A stretch of DNA of 64,000 nt. It comes from Terriglobales bacterium (GTDB lineage Bacteria > Acidobacteriota > Terriglobia > Terriglobales > Acidobacteriaceae). Shown here piece by piece: positions 27,540-40,078 of the stretch. Position numbers and translations under genes: made by a program. The stretch is from NCBI GenBank assembly GCA_035651655.1, contig DASRFG010000023.1:434001-498000 (forward strand). Direction: 5' to 3'. How positions within the stretch are numbered: position 1 is the first letter of the stretch; the number at the start of each line of letters is the position of its first letter. Under the pieces are notes generated by a model. That model saw only the letters and a program-made list of their open reading frames with translations. It was not told the origin of the DNA and ran no database searches.

Positions 27540-28465
27540 TTACGCCACAACTTCCAAGGCGTTGGGCAATACGTCGATTTTCTCGCAGTGAAGCGTGAGC
27601 ACTTCACCGTCGACCATCACGTCTACGGGCGCGTCTAGATCAAAATTGATTTCACGAGTCGCACGCCGCTCCGCCAGTGGATGTTTCAGATGTGACCCAT
27701 CGTAGAGTGTGTGCAGGTTGCGCAACAGCCCCAGGCGGCTGATCGGCCCCCAGCGCACGTACTCCAGCAGCCCGTCGGCAATCTCGGCTTTGGGTGCGAT
27801 CATCATTTTGCCGCCGGTAAACTTGCTGTTGTTAAAGGTGAGAAAGAGACAGCGGCGCAGGTCCGGCTTGGCGTCACCATCCACAACCAGCGGAAAAGCG
27901 CGCCGCTTAAGCCGCACCAGCCGGGTGAATAAGGCCAGCAGATAGCCCAACTCGCCTACTCCGCCAAAGCGTCGGATGCGTTCCGCAGCCACGTCAGCTG
28001 CGAAGCCGACGCTCAGCAGGTTGATGTAATACAGCACGCCTGCTTTGTGGGTGAGCCGCAGGACATCGCACGCCCGGCGTCGTCCAGCGATAAGAGATTC
28101 GGTGGCGTGTTTCAGCCCACTTTTGCTGAACTCGCGCAAAAAGGAATTCCCAGTGCCTAGAGGGAGAAAACCCAGCACCGGAGGTTCACGCTCACCCACA
28201 TTCTGTGCGGCCGGAAATACTCCGTTGACGATTTCGTAGGAAGTACCATCGCCACCCACGGCCAGGAACTGGCGCCAACCATTGGCAAATGCCTCGCGGG
28301 CAATAACGGTCGCGTCACCGGGACGACCGGTCCGCATGACCTCAAATTCGAGCCCAGCCGAACGCAGGCGATCGAGCGCAGGCCCCACCAACTTTCCGGA
28401 CCGTCCACCCCCAGCAGCCGGATTCACAATGGCGAGGAATTTCGAGTTGGATTGGGAGTGCATGG

Positions 28466-28469
<4 letters not shown>
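27540..28469 (-). CDS. Diacylglycerol/sphingosine kinase-family lipid kinase
   Basis: 309 residues of the DAGK catalytic family (LCB5/YegS type). [16 protein letters not shown] begins the domain, [16 protein letters not shown] (about 68-83) is the nucleotide-binding GGDGT motif, and [16 protein letters not shown] follows. ATP-dependent phosphorylation of a lipid hydroxyl is expected, substrate unknown. It is the last gene of a minus-strand operon; its ATG overlaps the preceding acyl ligase stop by 4 nt. In this operon it may make a phospholipid head group or recycle diacylglycerol; that is inference. Confidence 0.85.
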
Positions 28470-30193
<1,724 letters not shown>

Positions 30194-30208
30194 TCGGCGA
30201 GTTGAGTC

Positions 30209-30460
30209 TCACAACCGTGCCTGGATACGTTCGGCCAGCGTACGGAAGTCGGTCACGCCTTGTAGCTCGTAGTCGGGCAGCTCGACATGAAAGTGATTTT
30301 CCAGGCGGGTCAGCAGTTCCAGTGCCTGCAGGCTGTCAATGCCCAGCTTTTGAAAGAAATCGTCGTCTGCGGCAAGCGTCTCCCGCGGCACCTTGAAGTG
30401 AGTGGAGGCAAGAGCCAGGACTTCGTTCAATGTCTGATCGCGGTTCGCCATGTTCTTCAT
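30209..30460 (-). CDS. Acyl carrier protein
   Basis: 83 residues with the phosphopantetheine serine at Ser43 in FFQKLGIDSLQALELLTR. It is acidic and helical. Met4 could also be the start. The ATG overlaps the stop of the crotonase gene by one base (TAATG). It is not the housekeeping acpP context (no fabF or fabD nearby) and is probably dedicated to this operon, carrying acyl chains for the adjacent ligases, the crotonase and the reductase. Confidence 0.85.
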   Translation of the reverse strand: MKNMANRDQTLNEVLALASTHFKVPRETLAADDDFFQKLGIDSLQALELLTRLENHFHVELPDYELQGVTDFRTLAERIQARL

Positions 30461-31263
30461 TATGGCAAATATGGCTGCACCGTGGTGTTCTCCACGAATT
30501 TTCGCAGACCCTCTTCTACCGCAGGCTGGGTGAATAGGTCGCAGAAGATCTTAATTTCGAGACGCAGTTCCTCCTGCGGAATGGGCTTGATAAAGCGTTT
30601 CGCCGCGGCGCTGGTACGGCGGTCAAACTTCCGCACCTGGGCAGCTGTCGAGCGCGCAACCCGCAATGCTTCACCTTCGGCCGCCATCTGGCTGACCAGT
30701 CCCACAGATTGCGCTTTGCTGGCGTTAATACTTCGTCCCGTTAGCAACAGGTCACGGACCACCGCATTCCCCAAATCCCGCTTCAGCCGCGGAATTCCCC
30801 CAAATCCCGGGATCAGCCCCAAGCGCAGCTCGGGGAAACAGAAGCGTGCCATCTTGTCGGCGATGATCAAGTCACACGTCAGCGCCAGCTCGAATCCTCC
30901 GCCAAACGTGACTCCATGTACCGCCGCAATGGTGGTCAACGACGAACCGTCAATAGCATTGAACACAGCATGAATGCGTTCCAAAAACTCACGCACTCCG
31001 CGAACGCGGTCGGCCGACCGCATGCTTTGCGTCTTTTCGTAGAGCTCACGCAGGTCGGCGCCGGCACTGAATCCCGAGGGAAGCTGGCTGTAGATGATGA
31101 GCGCTGCGGCGTCACGTTCCAGTAAACTCAATGCCTCAACGAACCGCTCTAACTCCTTCAGCGTGACTGATCCAATCTCGTTCGCAGGCGGACGGTGCAG
31201 CGCCAATTCAATCACGCCCTCGACCAACTCCCACGAAATGGCCTCGCCGCGAAAATTCTTCAT
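30460..31263 (-). CDS. Enoyl-CoA hydratase/isomerase-family protein
   Basis: 267 residues, crotonase fold. The oxyanion-hole segments are FSAGADLRELYE and VHGVTFGGGFELALTCDLII, the first catalytic glutamate is in GGFELALT and the second in ARFCFPELRLGLIPGFGG. Both are kept, so hydratase activity is plausible. It overlaps the neighbouring ligase gene by 4 nt and the ACP by 1 nt. It could hydrate, dehydrate or isomerise an acyl chain on CoA or ACP; the exact reaction in this pathway is not readable. Confidence 0.83.
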   Translation of the reverse strand: MKNFRGEAISWELVEGVIELALHRPPANEIGSVTLKELERFVEALSLLERDAAALIIYSQLPSGFSAGADLRELYEKTQSMRSADRVRGVREFLERIHAVFNAIDGSSLTTIAAVHGVTFGGGFELALTCDLIIADKMARFCFPELRLGLIPGFGGIPRLKRDLGNAVVRDLLLTGRSINASKAQSVGLVSQMAAEGEALRVARSTAAQVRKFDRRTSAAAKRFIKPIPQEELRLEIKIFCDLFTQPAVEEGLRKFVENTTVQPYLP

Positions 31264-32924
31264 GCGCTCTGCCGGTCACGGTACAGCTCTTCGATTTGTT
31301 GCTGAAGCTGCGCCGCGATGAAGTCGCGCTTCAGCTTGCCATTCGCCGTCAGCATACCGTTTTCTACGCTGAATGGCTGCTCGACAATCTGGAATGCCCG
31401 TACCCGTTTGTAATGTGGCAGGTCACGATTGACCTCGTCCACGGCAAACTGCACCTGTTCTGGCATTGGGGTCCCGGTCACCAGGGCCGCCACAAACCCG
31501 CGCCCATGGCCGACTAACATGACCTGCTTGGCATCCGGTAGCAGCCGGAGCAGCTGGTCCTCAATGGGCTCGGGTGCGACATTGTGTCCGGAGCTAAGAA
31601 TAATCAGATTCTTTACACGCCCGGAAATTCGCCAATTCCCTGCCTCATTGACGTCGCCCTGATCGCCGGTGTGAAACCAGCCGTCGCGCAGAGCGTCAGC
31701 CGTGGCTTGCGCCCGATTCCAATAACCGGGGAACACATTCGGGCCCCGCACCAAAATTTCACCGTTTTCCGCGACTCTCATCTCAACCCCAGGGATCGCC
31801 GGTCCGACACGTCCGGGTTCAACCTGCCCGGGCTCATCCATGGTGCAAATCGCAGTCGTTTCCGTCAGACCATAGACCTGTAGCACCGGAACCCCAAGCA
31901 TGGCAAAAAACAATTGCGTTTCCCTAGCCAGGGGCGCCGAGCCGCAGATCAGGGCTTTCAGGTTCGCGCCAATCATCCTCTTCCGAACGCTGGAAAATAG
32001 AATGGCGCGGGCCCACGCCAACCAAAAGCGGTCCAGAGCTCGCCGCTCGCCGCGATTCTGCCGGAACCACGCCTCTTTGGCATTACCGTAGATCGTCTCA
32101 ACGATGCCGCCGAATTCCGCAAACTGGCGATCCACGCCCGTGCGCACGCGTTCCAGCAGTAACGGAACATTTAAGAAGTAGTTCGCGGCAGCGCTGCGCA
32201 TTTCTGCCGCCAGGCGGTTCTGGTCCGTGGACATCATCAGCAAGCTGCCGCGCAGCAAGCAGGTGAGCAGCATGATCCAGGAGCCGGCAAAGCAAAATGG
32301 CAGATAGTGGAATACCCGGTCTTGTCCTCTGGTGCCCTGCATCAGCCTGTCCAGGCGCTGCGAGGTACAACCCAGCATGTGATTGATATTCCCTAGCGTG
32401 AGCATCACGCCCTTGGCTTCGCCCGAGGTACCGGAGGTGTAAATGATAGTTACGGCGTCGTTCTCGGCTAGGGAAACCGGTGGGAGATTCACATCTTCCG
32501 CTTCGCTCGCGAAGATTTCATCGAATACCGCCCCACGGGGCGCTTCCGGCCAGTGCTGAGCGATGGAATCTCTAAAGGACGTATCACTACAAACGATCAG
32601 CGCCGGTGAGCAGTCCCTCATCATCACTACTAATTCATTGGGTGCTTGCCGGGAATAAAGCGGCACGACAATCAGGCCTTCAGACATTGCCGCCAAATCG
32701 ACCGCGACCCACCGAATGCTGTTGGGCGCCAGCAGCACACAGCGGTCGCCCTTTTTCAGTCCAGCTCCACGCAAAAAGGCTCGCGCTCTGGCAATATCGG
32801 TCAGCAGCTCACTGCCGGTCGCAAACACGCCGTGCTGTTCCCATAACTGTTCCAGAATGTTGCGGCTGGAAAAGGTGTTGAGGTTCTGAACAATTCGTTC
32901 CAGGACATTCGGCTCGCGCGCCAT
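31260..32924 (-). CDS. AMP-forming acyl-CoA/acyl-ACP ligase (copy 2)
   Basis: 554 residues, ANL superfamily. The phosphate loop is TIIYTSGTSGEAKGVMLTLG, the A5-type motif is LQVYGLTETTAICTMDEPG, the hinge is DGWFHTGDQGDVNE and the C-terminal Lys region is NGMLTANGKLKRDFIAAQL. It is a distinct protein from copy 1, not a recent duplicate. Its ATG overlaps the upstream pyruvyl transferase stop by one base. The pair of ligases suggests that two acyl groups, or acyl-CoA and acyl-ACP, are made separately. Confidence 0.87.
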   Translation of the reverse strand: MAREPNVLERIVQNLNTFSSRNILEQLWEQHGVFATGSELLTDIARARAFLRGAGLKKGDRCVLLAPNSIRWVAVDLAAMSEGLIVVPLYSRQAPNELVVMMRDCSPALIVCSDTSFRDSIAQHWPEAPRGAVFDEIFASEAEDVNLPPVSLAENDAVTIIYTSGTSGEAKGVMLTLGNINHMLGCTSQRLDRLMQGTRGQDRVFHYLPFCFAGSWIMLLTCLLRGSLLMMSTDQNRLAAEMRSAAANYFLNVPLLLERVRTGVDRQFAEFGGIVETIYGNAKEAWFRQNRGERRALDRFWLAWARAILFSSVRKRMIGANLKALICGSAPLARETQLFFAMLGVPVLQVYGLTETTAICTMDEPGQVEPGRVGPAIPGVEMRVAENGEILVRGPNVFPGYWNRAQATADALRDGWFHTGDQGDVNEAGNWRISGRVKNLIILSSGHNVAPEPIEDQLLRLLPDAKQVMLVGHGRGFVAALVTGTPMPEQVQFAVDEVNRDLPHYKRVRAFQIVEQPFSVENGMLTANGKLKRDFIAAQLQQQIEELYRDRQSA

Positions 32925-34333
32925 CAGGCGTATGCCTCGAGCAAGCGGCAGAGGTTGGGACCGAGCGGAGGCAGGTAATCCTCCCAGCTCAGCGCGCCCG
33001 TGCGCACCGGGAATTCGGGATAGCGTTGCTGCACGTGTGCCTCAAAATAGCTTCCCATTTTCGCCATGAGCTTGAGGTTTCTTACTACCGTATGACCAAT
33101 GGCTTGCGCGATAGCCTCGCGCTGCTTGCACAGCTTTTCCAGAATGCTCACCAACTTGGGCTCGAGCTCGGGGTCTTCCACTTCAAGCAGAAGATCATTA
33201 TGTCCACGCTCGCGCATCAGGTTGCGGATGCGCTCGTCCATTGTAATTCCCGCCGATGGCACCAGCCCGGGCATGGAGGTCACAATCCCGTGGTATCGCG
33301 AAGACACCATCATGTGACACGCCCGCAGAATGCTGACCAGTTGGTACATGTCGTACTCGTCAGAACTGAAGACCGGCGCGCCACCCAGACAATCGGCAAG
33401 CCAGCGGCAGGCATCCGTATCGAGGCGCTCCGTTGCCGCCAGCACGGGGAAAACGCTGTGCTGCTTGCGAAACGAATTCACTGCATTGGCGATGGCCGCG
33501 AGGTAGCGCTGGTAAGCCGCGTCCACCTGCGGCCCGGAATTGTGAAAATAAACCGAGCGATAATGGCTCTTCCTGTAGGCTCCGGTGGCAGCATGAGCAA
33601 TGTATTTTCCAACGGATGCTTTCACCGGCCAGAAGAACGGATTTATAGGACAAATCACGAGCACCGTTGTGTTGCTGTCCCAGCCCTTTTCGTGAAGGGC
33701 CTTTCGTCCGTAGTCGGGACCGTGGGGCTCGAATGTCCACGCCGTGTCGGTGCCGAGTTCGGTGGAAACGCCAAGCTCACGCAGCACGGTTCGCGATTCC
33801 TCGTTGCGCGTAATAATCAGCGACTCGCGGCAATAGCGCGCGCACATGCGGGCCAGTAGCGGATCCATTTCGCCAGCTTCGGCGCCGTAACCAACTGACA
33901 ATTTGTTCTGCGCCGATGCAATCGCCAGCGAGCCGATCATCATCGTGGTCAATGCATTGGCGAACTTGCTCTTGAACATCGAACCTTCGCACGCCATCAC
34001 ACCATGATGTTTCGGTACTTCGTTGTAGAGAAAGGGCGGAAAAATATCCGGCAGGTGGACCTGGCGGGCGTCACCGAAATACCCGCGAGACCGCTCGAAA
34101 TTCTGGCTCATCACGCTCAGGCTGACGTTCTCGGCGCCGAGGATTCGGCGCACCTGGCGCAGCATCTCTTCCACGCGAACATCGGAACCAGTGTTGCGCG
34201 TGCCATTGTAGCCGGCAAAAAGCAGCTTCAGCTTTTCGCCAGGCCGCCAGGAATCCCCCTCGCCCAGCATCCACTTCAGCTTGGTGAGTTCGATGGCGCC
34301 GCTGACCCACGCCTCGAGCACCAAGTCCATCAT
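32924..34333 (-). CDS. Polysaccharide pyruvyl transferase-family protein
   Basis: 469 residues from the ATG at 34333, chosen because it gives an ATGA overlap with the gene before it; the longer frame from 34576 lies inside that gene. The N-terminal [20 protein letters not shown] is the usual opening of the CsaB/polysaccharide pyruvyl transferase family, and [20 protein letters not shown] is its C-terminal motif. The known activity adds a pyruvyl ketal to a sugar in cell-wall or exopolysaccharide. In this operon of acyl-modifying enzymes the acceptor may be a lipid-linked sugar or head group. That is inference. Confidence 0.75.
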
Positions 34334-35463
34334 GCGGCTGAGCCTCCGGCCGCGCTCGGCCACTCCTGGTATTTGTAGGTGAAGCGATTCTCGCAACTGA
34401 ACTTGAGCAGCGGATAACTGTACTGTGAAAAGGGCGCCGGACGGCGTCCCGTCTCTCGAACTACGCGAGTATTGTCGAAAACCGTGTTCCACACCAGATA
34501 CGGTAAGAACACTTTCAGCAGCGATGCCCCGTGACCTACATTGCGCCGGCTTCGCGAGAGCTGTTCGACGGCCCAAGCAAATGGCCGCTCCAAGCTAGGC
34601 AGATAGACCGGACCGCGTTTGTGGCGTGCTCGTGAGAGCGCATCGGTGAGTTCGCGAAATGTCTGCGACGAGGTGCCCGACGAAAGATGATAGATATCGT
34701 GCTCGGGCTTCGCCTTCTGGTGCAGCGTAACGATCGAATCGGCAACAAAATCGACGTTCACGATGTCAATCTGGTCGGTTGGCCGGAAGGGGAGCACCGG
34801 CAATCCTGCGAGAAATACGAACGCCTTCACCATATCGAACTGCGTGGTCTGGGCGTAGCGGCTATCGCCCAGCACAATACTTGGCCGAAAGATGGTATGC
34901 GGAACATCGGGCAGCAGCTCGCGTACCATGTGCTCGCAGAATTTCTTGCCGCGGGCATATGGATCGTAATCAGAACGATTCCAATCGATGGCATCGTCCT
35001 CTTTGACCACCTCATTGCTGCGCTTCCCCGCAACAGCAACTGTACTGACATCGCTAAAGCGCCGCAGACCGTGGTGATCACGCGCCGCCTGCGCCAGCTT
35101 AATCACCTCAAGTGTCCCGCGCAGGTTCACGTTCAAGCAGGCTTTTTCCGACTTTCGGTTCAGAGACGCAGCGCAATGAATAACAGAATCCGTGGATTCC
35201 ATGAGCTGGCGGTAAGCGTCGGTGTCCAACCCAAAGCCTGAATCGACAAGGTCGCCGCGAAAAATCTTGATGCGTGATCGCAAGTGCGCGTGAAAACGCG
35301 GGAACTCCATGTGCAACTGCAATGCCCGCCACAACCGCACTTCGGCCTCATGCGCATCCTTCGCCCGAACCAGCAGGTTTAGATTGTCGCGGTGGCCTTC
35401 CAGCAAACCGACGACAACGTGGGCGCCAATGTAGCCGGTTGAGCCGGTCAGGAATATTGCCAC
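34330..35463 (-). CDS. Extended SDR / thioester-reductase-like protein
   Basis: 377 residues, extended short-chain dehydrogenase/reductase. The dinucleotide motif is [18 protein letters not shown] (G7xTGxxG13), [11 protein letters not shown] is the following sheet, and YARGK has the catalytic Tyr169 and Lys173. The NAD-binding_4 (male-sterility type) pattern is shared with the bigger FAR gene next to it, so it may reduce or oxidise an acyl or sugar carbonyl. No TE or PCP domain is attached. It overlaps the FAR gene by 16 nt at its start and the pyruvyl transferase by 4 nt at its end. Confidence 0.78.
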
Positions 35464-37847
35464 GTGGTTCCCGTTCCAGTTTGTAGGGTCTGGTCATTAT
35501 CGGCGGCCACGCCGCCTTCGGGCGGTGGCGAAGAGGACATCTGGAACCTGGGCCGGGGCCCGGATTCTATGGGACGGCCCTCGATCAGCGGATACGTCCA
35601 TTTGCGCAGCGCAGGTATATGTATGTTGATCCAGTACTCGTACCAGTCAAGACTGCGGGTGTCGTAGCCAAAGACCGAACGCTCTTCGGCAGGCAAAGCC
35701 TGCGACAACCACTCGATGTGCTCCGCCTCAAAATCGTGCTCGTTATGCAAGATAAACGGTTCGAACAACTCGATCAGCTTCTCCACTCGCTCCAGTCCGC
35801 GTTCGGTGCGTACCAACGGCGGCTGAAGAAAAGGAAATGGCGCCGTGATTTTCTGCAACGACTTTACCAACGCCTTCTGCGCTGGCGCCGAAAGCCGGTT
35901 ATAGCGTTGCTTTGAAACTGCGATCGTGTCGAAGCGTAACCGCCGGCGCAGCTCAGGATCGTCCTGTGCGCGATAAAACTTTCGATGCGCCAGGCAGGTA
36001 AGCTCGATGGAGCGCGCCATATCACAAGGATTGCTGACCGAAGTCGCCAGTTGGTAAACCGGCTCGTGACAGCGCTGTACGATCGCGGCTGCGATCAGGG
36101 TCATGCCCCGGCACACGGTATCGACGGGAATAATGTCCAGTCGCTTGCGCTCATTGCTTGGCAGCTGCCGGAAGTATGTGCCCAATAAATATGAAAGCGA
36201 CGCCGAAGTGTTTATGCCTTCGTTCCAGCCGCGGAACGGCTGCGTCACTGAGGTCTCAACAATAGACGGACGCACCACCGCGATCGGCAGCCCCGCCCCG
36301 AGCTTTTGGATCAGCGACTCCGCCAGGCTCTTGGTGAGGGTGTAGGTGTTGGGCCATCCCAGCTCCTTGGCCCGCTTGGTGCCCGCCTCGGTGAGATAGG
36401 CCCGGAGCCATCGCACCCGGTTCTTCCTGATCTGGTTCTCCAAGGCGACCGCCGAGAGCTCTTTCCCGCCGGTTTTCTGCTGAGCTTGCCTTCGTAGCTC
36501 CCGGTCGATCTCCGGACTTTCCGAACGTGCAATTGCATCTTGAATCGTCTTGTGTAGCGCCTGGCGTTCGCTTTCCGCGTCGAATCCTGATATGCCCAGC
36601 GGCGTGTAGTTGGGGTGCAACTCCTCTTCGACTCGCCCGTCGCGCGCACCCGCCACATAGCACGTAGAAAGATGCAGCAAACCGGCGTGATCACATTGCC
36701 GTACAAATTGGATCAAGTGGAGAACGGAATCCACATTGGAGGCGAGAGCTTCGCGCAGATCCGGGTTGAAGTCGGTCAGCCCCGAACTGTTGACCACCAG
36801 ATCGAGGGTGGCCTGCAGCGGTTGCAGCACTCCAGCCGGCAGCCCGAACCCGGGCTGACCGGCATCTCCTTCCAACACTTCCACCCGCCGGGAGATAAAC
36901 CGCTCGAATTCGCTTCGGTAGCGTTGATGAAGCGGATCGAAGATTGGAGATTCTTCGAGGATCTTTTCAAAACGCCGCCGCGCCGAATTGGATTTCTGCC
37001 GGCGTATCAGCAGGTATATCTTGCCCACTTCAGGCAGACTCTCGAGCAACTGCGCCAGCCACACTTTGCCAATAAACCCGGTGACCCCAATCAGCAGGAC
37101 GTTCTTGCCCGCCAGTGCGCTTCGGACCGAGAACCGCCGCGGCTCCTTCACGGAATCAAAGTGGATGACCGGATGAGTCCTATGCGCTAGCTTCCGTTCG
37201 GTTGAAACAACAGCCGAGGAGAGAGTGTCGATCTTGCCCCGGAAATCAAGCTCGGTGGAAAGCTCGTCGAGAGTTCGACTACCGTTGGCCGCGCCGCCGG
37301 TGATCAGCGCCAATATGCCCCGAGGGCGAATCACGGGATCGAGCAGCCGCCCGGTGCAATAGTTGTCCCGAAATTCCAGCCGATTGCAGAGGAGCCGTGT
37401 CACTTCGAGGTACTCCGCCAGCGGACGCATGACGTGATCCAGCCCCTGGCTCACCAGGACCACCTCCTGGCCCGTCGTAACTAATTGCCGCAGCTTTTGA
37501 ACACCTTCCGGTTTCAGGTGGGCCTTCAGTACATACCAGAAATATTCCTCGCCCAGCAGGTCCAGGCGATCGCGGCTTATTCCTCTCAAAATAGTGTGGA
37601 CAAGACGAGTAGCGAAGGTGCGATCAATTGCATACAGGATGGGACGGAGCAGCGCCTGCAGAAAAATAGCACCGCGACGCAGCCAGCGCTCGCTGAACGT
37701 TTGCGCATTCCAGGCGAAGAACGCCACCGGACGCACCGTACTCAGGTTCAACAGGCTGCCCTCAACCCGCCAGTAAACCGGCGCGGGCTGGGTTTTATGT
37801 TTAATGCTGGAATTCAAGACTTCGTCCAAAGCTCCGGGAACCGCCAT
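35448..37847 (-). CDS. HAD-like domain fused to fatty acyl-CoA reductase
   Basis: 799 residues, two modules. The N-terminal part (about 24-220) resembles the HAD-IB/SerB-like domain: [20 protein letters not shown] in place of DxDGTL, then [19 protein letters not shown] as motif II. The catalytic DxD is replaced by Arg27-Val-Glu29, so phosphatase activity is doubtful. From about 245 comes an NAD-binding_4/FAR domain: [20 protein letters not shown] (GxTGxxG at 254-260), [17 protein letters not shown] and [14 protein letters not shown] with the Tyr/Lys pair. The C-terminus ends in a basic, Pro-rich tail. A GGGAG ribosome site precedes the ATG. FARs make fatty aldehyde or alcohol from acyl-CoA, which can be an ether-lipid precursor. 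Confidence 0.8.
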
Positions 37848-37951: not shown

Positions 37952-40078
37952 TTAATCGCCGTAAACCTCTTCCTTAACTTCTTCCTTGGTAGCAACATCG
38001 TCGTCTATGGGCCGGGGCGCAGCCAGCGATTCCAGCGGCACGAAGCCGCCGGGCGCAGGCTTCTCGCCGAGAACTTGCTCGCGGTACAACTTGGACATGC
38101 GTGCATTTTCTTCTTCCTGCTTCACCCTGGCCGCACGTGCCCGCATCTTCTCTTCACGCGAGTTTTTGGCGATGCCTAGCACATCCAGGTCCTTCTGCTC
38201 CTCGGTGGTGATGATGCCTTCTTTCAAGGTCAGCGCACCCTCACTGTCGGCGATTTTCACCTTCTTGCCGCCGGCGAAGATCTCATGCCGCCCGTGCTCC
38301 TCGTACCATTTGGTGAGGGTGGCGGTCATATGCATTTTCTCGATGATGTTCCGCCAGCCTACGCCAGTGTTGTAGGCGCAGAAGGAAATCTCACCTTCCT
38401 GGGTGGCATAGGGAATAATGCACTGCTCGGTTCGCCGGAAATCGTAGTTGTACAGGTCCTGGAACCACATTCCTGCAACGAACAGCACATTCCAGCGGTC
38501 TTTACGCCGTTTCTCGATGTCTTCGAGAGTTCGGTCACCGGTGACTTTGCCGTAGCCGCCGCTCTGGGCCTTCTTGGTCACGCCAAAACTCTTGTCGAAC
38601 TTGGTCAACATGTCGAAGATGGTGAAATGCTTTGGCGTCTTGAACGGGTCGTAATTGCGCATCAGGGCAAGCGCCATGCCGAGCGATGACAGAAACTTTC
38701 CCCGTCCCGCATCGTTGATGCTGGCCACGTCCTTTGCCATCTGGTCAGCGTGCAGGAAGGCGGTCATCGGTGCCGCTTCCTTGGTTTCCTTGTCAATCAT
38801 GATGGCCATGCCAACGCCGCAATTCGGGTGGCAGCCGCAGCTCACTTGTCCCCACTCGGCCTGCGGACCGTGTACCAGGTCAGACCAATCGGAGAAGGTG
38901 CTGATGAAGGAGAGTGGGAACCAATCGCGCGCCGGCTCGCCGAGTCCGGTCTGATTCTTCACGTCGTGCGCCAAATGCGAAAGCGTATAGCGTTGCGCCT
39001 GGCGGCGCTCGTCAGTTACCGCTTCGTCGCGGCCGGTAAACGAGACCGGCTGGAAGGAGAGGAACGACATCATCTTGGGATTGTCCAGTGCAAACTGAAT
39101 GATGCGTCCCACCTGCTCGTTATTGATGCCGTTCACAATGGTAGTGACCGGCACCAGCTCAACCCCTGCTTCGTGCAGGTTCTCAATGGCTTTTAACTTT
39201 ACGTCGAACAAGTTGCCGACCTTGCGGTGCGAGTTCGCGGCATTGCCGATGCCGTCGAACTGCAGGTAGGCATAGCGCAGGCCCGCTTCCCTGGCCTGAT
39301 TGCAGAACTCTTTACTCTTGGCGAATTCAATTCCGTTGGTCGCCGCCTGGACGCTGGTGTAGCCCACCTTGCGGGCGTATGCCACAGCATCCAGAAAGTA
39401 TGGCGAAAGTGTCGGCTCACCGCCCGAGAACTGCACCGACATCTGCCGTTTCGGCTTAATGGAAATCGCGTTATCCAGCAGTGTTTTGATCTCTTCCCAA
39501 GTCAGTTCGTGAACAAAGCCCACCTGGTTCGCGTCCATGAAGCAGGGATCGCACATCATGTTGCAGCGGTTGGTGAGATCAATGGTAAGAACTGAACCGC
39601 GGCCGTATTTCACCGTGCTGGAACCGTGATTATGCAGGCGTTCGTCGTTGTGAGAACGAATGTCGCGGCCAGGAAAACAATCTTCCAGGTGCTTGAAGAA
39701 GGCAGTGTCCATTGCCATCACGTCTTCGAAGTGCCCGTGCTTGGGGCAGTCCTTCACCATCAGGATCTTGCCGTCGCGCTCGATGATCTGCGCTTTGATC
39801 TCGCCTACTTTTTGGTTGAGCAGGATGTCGTGGGGCAACTTGCCATCGAGGATCTGTTGCCGGATTTCAGGCACGCACTTCGGGCACAGCGAGTCGGTCG
39901 TCCGCGGCCAGCCCAGTGGGGGCTTGCTCTTCTCGTAAGATTTCAGCATCGGCTTATCGGACCACTTGGGCGTGAACGATGGCTTGGGATGGATGCGATT
40001 CAGCCTCTCGAAAAGGAGCCACGCGCCGTTCGCGGCGACGTTGAGGGCCTTCTCCACATATTTTACCGGCTTGTGCAT
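37952..40078 (-). CDS. Radical SAM protein of the MJ0619/tetraether-lipid-synthase (Tes) type
   Basis: 708 residues. The N-terminus has TTDSLCPKCVPEI (Cys65, Cys68) and MVKDCPKHGHFED (Cys111, His114), the opening seen in the MJ0619 family. The radical SAM cluster is LTNRCNMMCDPCFMDAN (Cys172, 176, 179), then FSGGEPTLSP. A second Cys cluster reads VSCGCHPNCGVG (Cys414, 416, 420), and EQCIIPY and ISFCAYN supply Cys553 and Cys567, which could hold further Fe-S centres. Members of this family include the archaeal enzyme joining lipid tails into tetraethers, and bacterial homologues are candidates for iso-diabolic acid or branched GDGT synthesis. It would work at the inner face of the membrane; there is no signal peptide. 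A charged tail (about 620-708) is added. Confidence 0.8.
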   Translation of the reverse strand: MHKPVKYVEKALNVAANGAWLLFERLNRIHPKPSFTPKWSDKPMLKSYEKSKPPLGWPRTTDSLCPKCVPEIRQQILDGKLPHDILLNQKVGEIKAQIIERDGKILMVKDCPKHGHFEDVMAMDTAFFKHLEDCFPGRDIRSHNDERLHNHGSSTVKYGRGSVLTIDLTNRCNMMCDPCFMDANQVGFVHELTWEEIKTLLDNAISIKPKRQMSVQFSGGEPTLSPYFLDAVAYARKVGYTSVQAATNGIEFAKSKEFCNQAREAGLRYAYLQFDGIGNAANSHRKVGNLFDVKLKAIENLHEAGVELVPVTTIVNGINNEQVGRIIQFALDNPKMMSFLSFQPVSFTGRDEAVTDERRQAQRYTLSHLAHDVKNQTGLGEPARDWFPLSFISTFSDWSDLVHGPQAEWGQVSCGCHPNCGVGMAIMIDKETKEAAPMTAFLHADQMAKDVASINDAGRGKFLSSLGMALALMRNYDPFKTPKHFTIFDMLTKFDKSFGVTKKAQSGGYGKVTGDRTLEDIEKRRKDRWNVLFVAGMWFQDLYNYDFRRTEQCIIPYATQEGEISFCAYNTGVGWRNIIEKMHMTATLTKWYEEHGRHEIFAGGKKVKIADSEGALTLKEGIITTEEQKDLDVLGIAKNSREEKMRARAARVKQEEENARMSKLYREQVLGEKPAPGGFVPLESLAAPRPIDDDVATKEEVKEEVYGD

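Follow-up and report, generated by a model that had tools for sequence, protein, structure and literature searches.

A 64,000-nucleotide stretch of a Terriglobales (Acidobacteriota) genome, hereafter the window, encodes a homologue of the tetraether lipid synthase Tes (GDGT-MAS, MJ0619) that belongs, judging from aligned sequences, to a distinct variant of this enzyme with one iron-sulphur cluster fewer. We consider it reasonably probable that this protein is a radical SAM enzyme which couples lipid tails, most likely joining ester-bound iso-C15 tails to give iso-diabolic acid. In common soil Acidobacteria, this acid accounts for as much as half of all fatty acids; it is also the likely precursor of the brGDGT lipids used as a palaeothermometer, and, to our knowledge, there is no established enzyme for making it.

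Family membership, metal sites and predicted fold

The gene (37952-40078, minus strand) starts with ATG and encodes 708 amino acids, with cysteines at positions 65, 68, 111, 134, 172, 176, 179, 259, 414, 416, 420, 553 and 567, plus His114; the entire Cys/His set named in the original prediction is included here, residue for residue. Pfam finds a Radical_SAM domain (8.6e-19) and the HMPTM zinc ribbon (1.9e-13; 50.2 bits, cut-off 27), the latter being common to Tes-like proteins and therefore unable to discriminate a pterin methyltransferase. The NCBIfam Tes model NF045702 matches at 321 bits (E=1.1e-95), below its equivalog cut-off of 450 bits, and the best PDB matches are the GDGT-MAS structures 7TOL and 7TOM, over the full length (E=1.4e-61), followed by SkfB and MoaA at about 1e-5 to 1e-4. 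When the Tes model was run against the 39 contigs (4.07 Mb) of the window's genome, this was the only Tes-like protein found; the runner-up is a generic radical SAM protein at 62 bits.

Across the Acidobacteriota, matches to the Tes model fall into three groups: group A, or Tes-proper, with 472-619 bits and 38-48% identity to MJ0619; clade B, that of the window protein, whose whole genes score about 300-350 bits, with about 31% identity to MJ0619 and 50-84% to the window protein; and group C, TrsS-like proteins, which receive about equal scores from the TrsS and Tes models and align to the window protein mainly along its N-terminal half. In a maximum-likelihood tree, clade B is monophyletic (100/100) and sits inside the Tes group, separate from Tes-proper as found in other Acidobacteriota and away from the TrsS-like proteins, on a long stem branch of 1.42 changes per column. 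Considering that the tree is rooted on group C and that its branches are long, we are more confident of the unity of clade B than of its exact sister. Adjoining it are L114, L116 and L117, which share with clade B a Cys414 that is invariant in the clade and found in no other group A sequence; this is a long-branch join, and the common cysteine, together with the scores of these three sequences (331-335 bits, against mostly 215-310 bits), support a genuine kinship. A more divergent subfamily of clade B, at 50-54% identity to the window protein, is seen at L151, L155, L120, L157 and L158, and some of these genomes also have a typical copy.

As crystallised, MJ0619 carries four cofactors: one rubredoxin-type iron (C9, C12, C33, H36) and three clusters, namely [Fe4S4]N near the N-terminus (C73, C77, C80 and a His), that of the radical SAM site, and the C-terminal [Fe4S4]C with its labile Met439 (PMC9433317, from which the residue roles used for comparison are also taken). 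In our alignment of 79 proteins, the equivalent rubredoxin-type site of the window protein (C65, C68, C111 and H114; residues 65-114, 39737-39886, minus strand) is invariant in 39/39 clade B rows, and the radical SAM motif CX3CX2C is recognised by Pfam and alignment alike (C172, C176 and C179; residues 172-179, 39542-39565, minus strand). For the C-terminal cluster, the aligned ligands are C420, within CGCHPNC (residues 414-420; 38819-38839, minus strand), C553 and C567, with M537 in the place of Met439 and Y557 in that of Tyr459 (residues 537-567; 38378-38470, minus strand); all five are invariant in clade B, and M537, C553, Y557 and C567 are equally so in Tes-proper. Most SAM-binding residues are kept, with F180, G220, Y271, D275, V311, Q343, S346 and R350 of the 5'-dAH/Met site invariant in clade B, whereas the equivalent of MJ0619 Arg210 is not kept in the clade and C414 is extra to MJ0619.

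What clade B lacks is [Fe4S4]N. Its C73/C77/C80/His ligands are missing from 39/39 clade B proteins but kept by 28/28 Tes-proper and by 11/11 group C proteins, and the motif CPYDCGLCPNH is replaced in the window protein by a clade-specific HNHGSS (residues 149-154; 39617-39634, minus strand). Since this cluster is found in every Tes compared and is lost here, activity is not to be assumed. The original prediction had read the rubredoxin, SAM and C-terminal sites correctly but overlooked this absence, and its assignment needs to be qualified accordingly: homology, tree, residues and fold all place the protein in the Tes/MJ0619 family, but not as an unqualified member of that type, since clade B as a whole retains two of the three [4Fe-4S] sites. 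Throughout clade B, the corresponding stretch reads HxHG[S/T]S, with invariant histidines in the place of the former [Fe4S4]N ligands; possibly this motif represents a different metal site.

An AlphaFold2 model built on 38 window-clade and Tes-proper sequences (pLDDT 86.3, pTM 0.86) retrieves 7TOM and 7TOL first in Foldseek (E about 1e-35), covering the whole of 7TOM with a TM of 0.85 by target length; the matches that follow span roughly half as much, mainly the radical SAM core, with E no better than about 1e-8. Considering that the match to 7TOM is whole-length, the modelled protein has the C-terminal lipid domain of Tes as well as the radical SAM partial TIM barrel, so that the overall Tes fold is borne out at the level of predicted structure. 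At 708 residues, the window protein is longer than MJ0619 (about 506), owing to insertions and to an N-terminal extension of about 50 residues which includes a predicted amphipathic helix, extra to Tes (residues 4-27, hydrophobic moment 1.47; 39998-40069, minus strand). Aligned N-termini reveal recognisable counterparts of this helix across clade B, and it may be an element of membrane contact.

Distribution, iso-diabolic acid and the Tes-proper paralogue

Relatives of the window protein were sought in 84,980 species genomes, and the best 80 matches (73-84% identity) are acidobacterial, from Acidobacteriaceae to Bryobacterales, bar one record labelled Rhodanobacteraceae. That record, L060, has a clade B gene 76% identical to that of the window, and is probably a mis-binned acidobacterial contig. 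In a survey of 297 Acidobacteriota genomes, every genome sampled from the window's class (34/34) has clade B; Tes-proper is patchy, with 34 of the 297 genomes encoding it, including 3 of the 32 sampled from the window's family. The family around L084 has a Tes-superfamily match in 69/69 genomes, 15 of which encode Tes-proper. A genus with two replicons also has clade B; its FmoA gene identifies it as Chloracidobacterium, for which iso-diabolic acid is on record (PMC12816986).

Iso-diabolic acid has been reported in subdivisions (SD) 1, 3, 4 and 6 out of seven surveyed, and amounts to 20-40% of fatty acids in SD1 and SD3 cultures (PMC13274423) and to 27-49% in Occallatibacter and relatives (PMC12935467). 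In Acidipila rosea and Granulicella aggregans, clade B provides the only strong Tes-family match; iso-diabolic acid does not appear in the lipid table for Acidipila, and the same table omits it for Terracidiphilus (PMC6252331), where it was later found by acid hydrolysis (PMC12935467). For Solibacter usitatus (SD3), with its two Tes homologues, brGDGTs are reported but no detectable iso-diabolic acid (PMC10087280). Overall, the distribution of clade B fits iso-diabolic acid production, as a match at the level of lineages and not strain by strain. There is also a hint of a link to oxygen: COX1 is found in 129/134 clade B genomes and in 23/34 Tes-proper genomes (p about 1e-5, from a hand count with three genomes in both groups, and not corrected for kinship).

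Members of the PlsA/Ger family, which combine BadF and DUF2229, are thought to convert ester into ether bonds. DUF2229 is found in 25/34 Tes-proper genomes, against 8 of 48 tested genomes that have clade B alone (Fisher p=2.6e-7, kinship uncorrected); most sampled Acidobacteriaceae with a clade B gene have no PlsA-like gene, and the window's own genome combines clade B with one BadF+DUF2229 gene of this kind. In genome G195, such a gene directly follows Tes-proper on the same strand, at a distance of 249 bp (L182:5181-10183), and the spacing is the same in G290; going by gene order, we regard the L182 pair as a candidate acidobacterial operon for tetraethers.

In five genomes, clade B is followed closely by Tes-proper on one strand, either directly adjacent (L180:6551-10587, L181:6983-11119 and L183:3818-8001) or with other genes in between (L165 and L166). 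Whatever lies beside the gene in the window, these same-strand pairs tie clade B to the making of membrane-spanning lipids. The two groups are thus members of one superfamily within one phylum and are sometimes in tandem, but they differ in that Tes-proper is closer to MJ0619, has all four metal sites, is patchily distributed and co-occurs with PlsA/Ger-type genes. The original prediction had offered the window gene for a step towards either iso-diabolic acid or branched GDGTs; the distribution fits the former, whereas co-occurrence with PlsA/Ger makes the brGDGT/tetraether step better suited to the Tes-proper paralogue.

Proposed coupling step and its alternatives

By homology with GDGT-MAS, the substrate would be two iso-C15 acyl chains, still ester-bound in phospholipids, that would be joined at their terminal methyl carbons. 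A chain end would enter a hydrophobic tunnel, a 5'-deoxyadenosyl radical would take a hydrogen from its terminal CH3, and the carbon radical would be parked on the C-terminal [Fe4S4] cluster through a C-S bond; the partner radical, produced by a second SAM, would then attack the cluster-bound carbon and so form the Csp3-Csp3 bond. In GDGT-MAS itself, a transient bond joins a lipid carbon to a sulphur of one of the [Fe4S4] clusters, with [Fe4S4]C argued to be the one involved (PMC9433317). Since the iso branch end is chemically the same group as the phytanyl end, the coupling geometry would be that of Tes, as is also argued in PMC8941075. Counting against iso-diabolic acid are the loss of [Fe4S4]N, the NF045702 score below cut-off, the lipids of Solibacter usitatus, and the long stem branch, which allows for a change of function.

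We tentatively posit, at slightly less than even chances, a division of labour between two enzymes in the Acidobacteriota: the near-universal, three-cofactor clade B would make ester-bound iso-diabolic acid, whilst the patchy, four-cofactor Tes-proper would make tetraethers together with PlsA/Ger-type reductases, the loss of the surface cluster [Fe4S4]N perhaps suiting aerobic cells. If this is true, C-C coupling does not require the N-terminal cluster; clade B offers a natural experiment on the role of that cluster.

Could the window protein instead be the tetraether or brGDGT synthase proper, condensing ether lipids? Its homology to Tes and the PlsA/Ger-kind gene in its genome speak for this, and the same function has been proposed for acidobacterial Tes homologues generally (PMC8941075, PMC10087280). 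We nevertheless consider it unlikely, if foremost among the alternatives: PlsA/Ger-type genes accompany Tes-proper and not clade B alone, one of them directly adjoins Tes-proper in L182, and most sampled clade B Acidobacteriaceae are without a PlsA-like gene, yet SD1 and SD3 cultures are rich in iso-diabolic acid (PMC13274423). Rather improbable, too, is the same cluster-bound radical chemistry on another hydrophobic chain, be it of other length or coupled at another position, or of carotenoid, quinone or hopanoid type. The long stem, the lost [Fe4S4]N and the clade-specific HxHG[S/T]S would all allow an altered function, and the substrate is unreadable from sequence; weighing the other way are the near-universality of clade B in iso-diabolic acid lineages and the lack of any other Tes-superfamily candidate in the window's genome.

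The tandem arrangement, with clade B first, might also suggest a partner or modulator of Tes-proper that performs the first coupling or forms half of a heteromeric pair, but we think this very improbable, considering that most of the window's family is without Tes-proper and that the clade B protein must work alone there. We give next to no credence to a non-lipid enzyme, whether a pterin (HMPTM) methyltransferase or a TrsS-type radical SAM protein. The zinc-ribbon match and the 211 bits obtained with the TrsS model NF045646 could be read in this way, but that score is far under the model's 490-bit cut-off, the tree puts the protein outside the TrsS-like group, group C matches it mainly in the N-terminal half, and MJ0619 itself, once assigned as a pterin methylase, proved otherwise (PMC9433317). 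Tree, residues and fold place the window protein with Tes and not with either of these enzyme types, in keeping with the original prediction.

Earlier work and the neighbouring operon

That acidobacterial Tes homologues lead to membrane-spanning lipids is a hypothesis published in 2022, which our analysis both strengthens and narrows. Zeng et al. listed acidobacterial homologues, among them those of Edaphobacter aggregans (32% identity), Koribacter (42%) and Solibacter (40%), the last two being literature examples of Tes-proper, and proposed such homologues as brGDGT makers (PMC8941075); Halamka et al. assigned the two Solibacter homologues to diether condensation (PMC10087280), and Lloyd et al. 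noted bacterial homologues of MJ0619 (PMC9433317). As of 2025, the activity of bacterial Tes homologues was unconfirmed (PMC11868695). By its identity and taxon, the E. aggregans protein probably belongs to clade B; the accessible part of PMC8941075 reports it only as a Tes homologue and does not mention the missing cluster site. In the openly accessible literature that we searched, we found no experiment on any acidobacterial Tes homologue, and no paper separating clade B, noting the missing cluster or tying the clade to ester-bound iso-diabolic acid. The cofactor-reduced clade, its near-universality, its separation from Tes-proper and the tandem pairs are new here.

Tail-to-tail acyl coupling is also proposed for Mss, the bacterial membrane-spanning lipid synthase of Thermotoga maritima (PMC11604127, PMC13274423). 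The T. maritima genome, taken as a control and with a working Mss, has no Tes-model match at E<=1e-25, against 1e-95 for the window protein; this indirect comparison through the Tes model suggests that the latter lies with Tes and not with Mss. The TrsS-like proteins of group C (NF045646) have a rubredoxin-like N-terminus and a radical SAM core in common with the window protein, but form a separate clade and, unlike clade B, keep [Fe4S4]N, and most members are without most [Fe4S4]C ligands. With iso-diabolic acid synthesis as the preferred reading, a single clade can be named for this step and set apart from the Tes-proper paralogue, and its residue marker (no [Fe4S4]N, HxHG[S/T]S, C414) could allow environmental gene surveys to split what are otherwise pooled 'Tes hits'.

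An adjacent operon for acyl activation and reduction had been put forward in support of the lipid function. The operon is indeed present: by Pfam, an acyl reductase-like protein (HAD + NAD_binding_4 + Sterile; 35448-37847, minus strand) is encoded 104 bp downstream of the Tes-like gene, and beyond it a second NAD_binding_4 reductase, a pyruvyl-transferase-like protein, an AMP-ligase, an enoyl-CoA hydratase (ECH), another AMP-ligase and a YegS/DAGK lipid kinase (27540-35463, minus strand). However, acyl reductases lie near the clade B gene in only 6 of the best 80 relatives, sometimes several kilobases off, none of the remaining neighbour families is found at more than 14 of 73 loci, and the neighbours that we inspected are unrelated (RlpA-, MutY- and GatA-like). 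As the neighbourhood is not conserved, the operon should carry no weight for the function of the gene, and we dropped gene neighbourhood as evidence. The compact run at 27540-37847 (minus strand) resembles a lipid or fatty-alcohol operon in its own right. Its gene order is partly conserved at L008, L009, L043, L045, L048 and L067.
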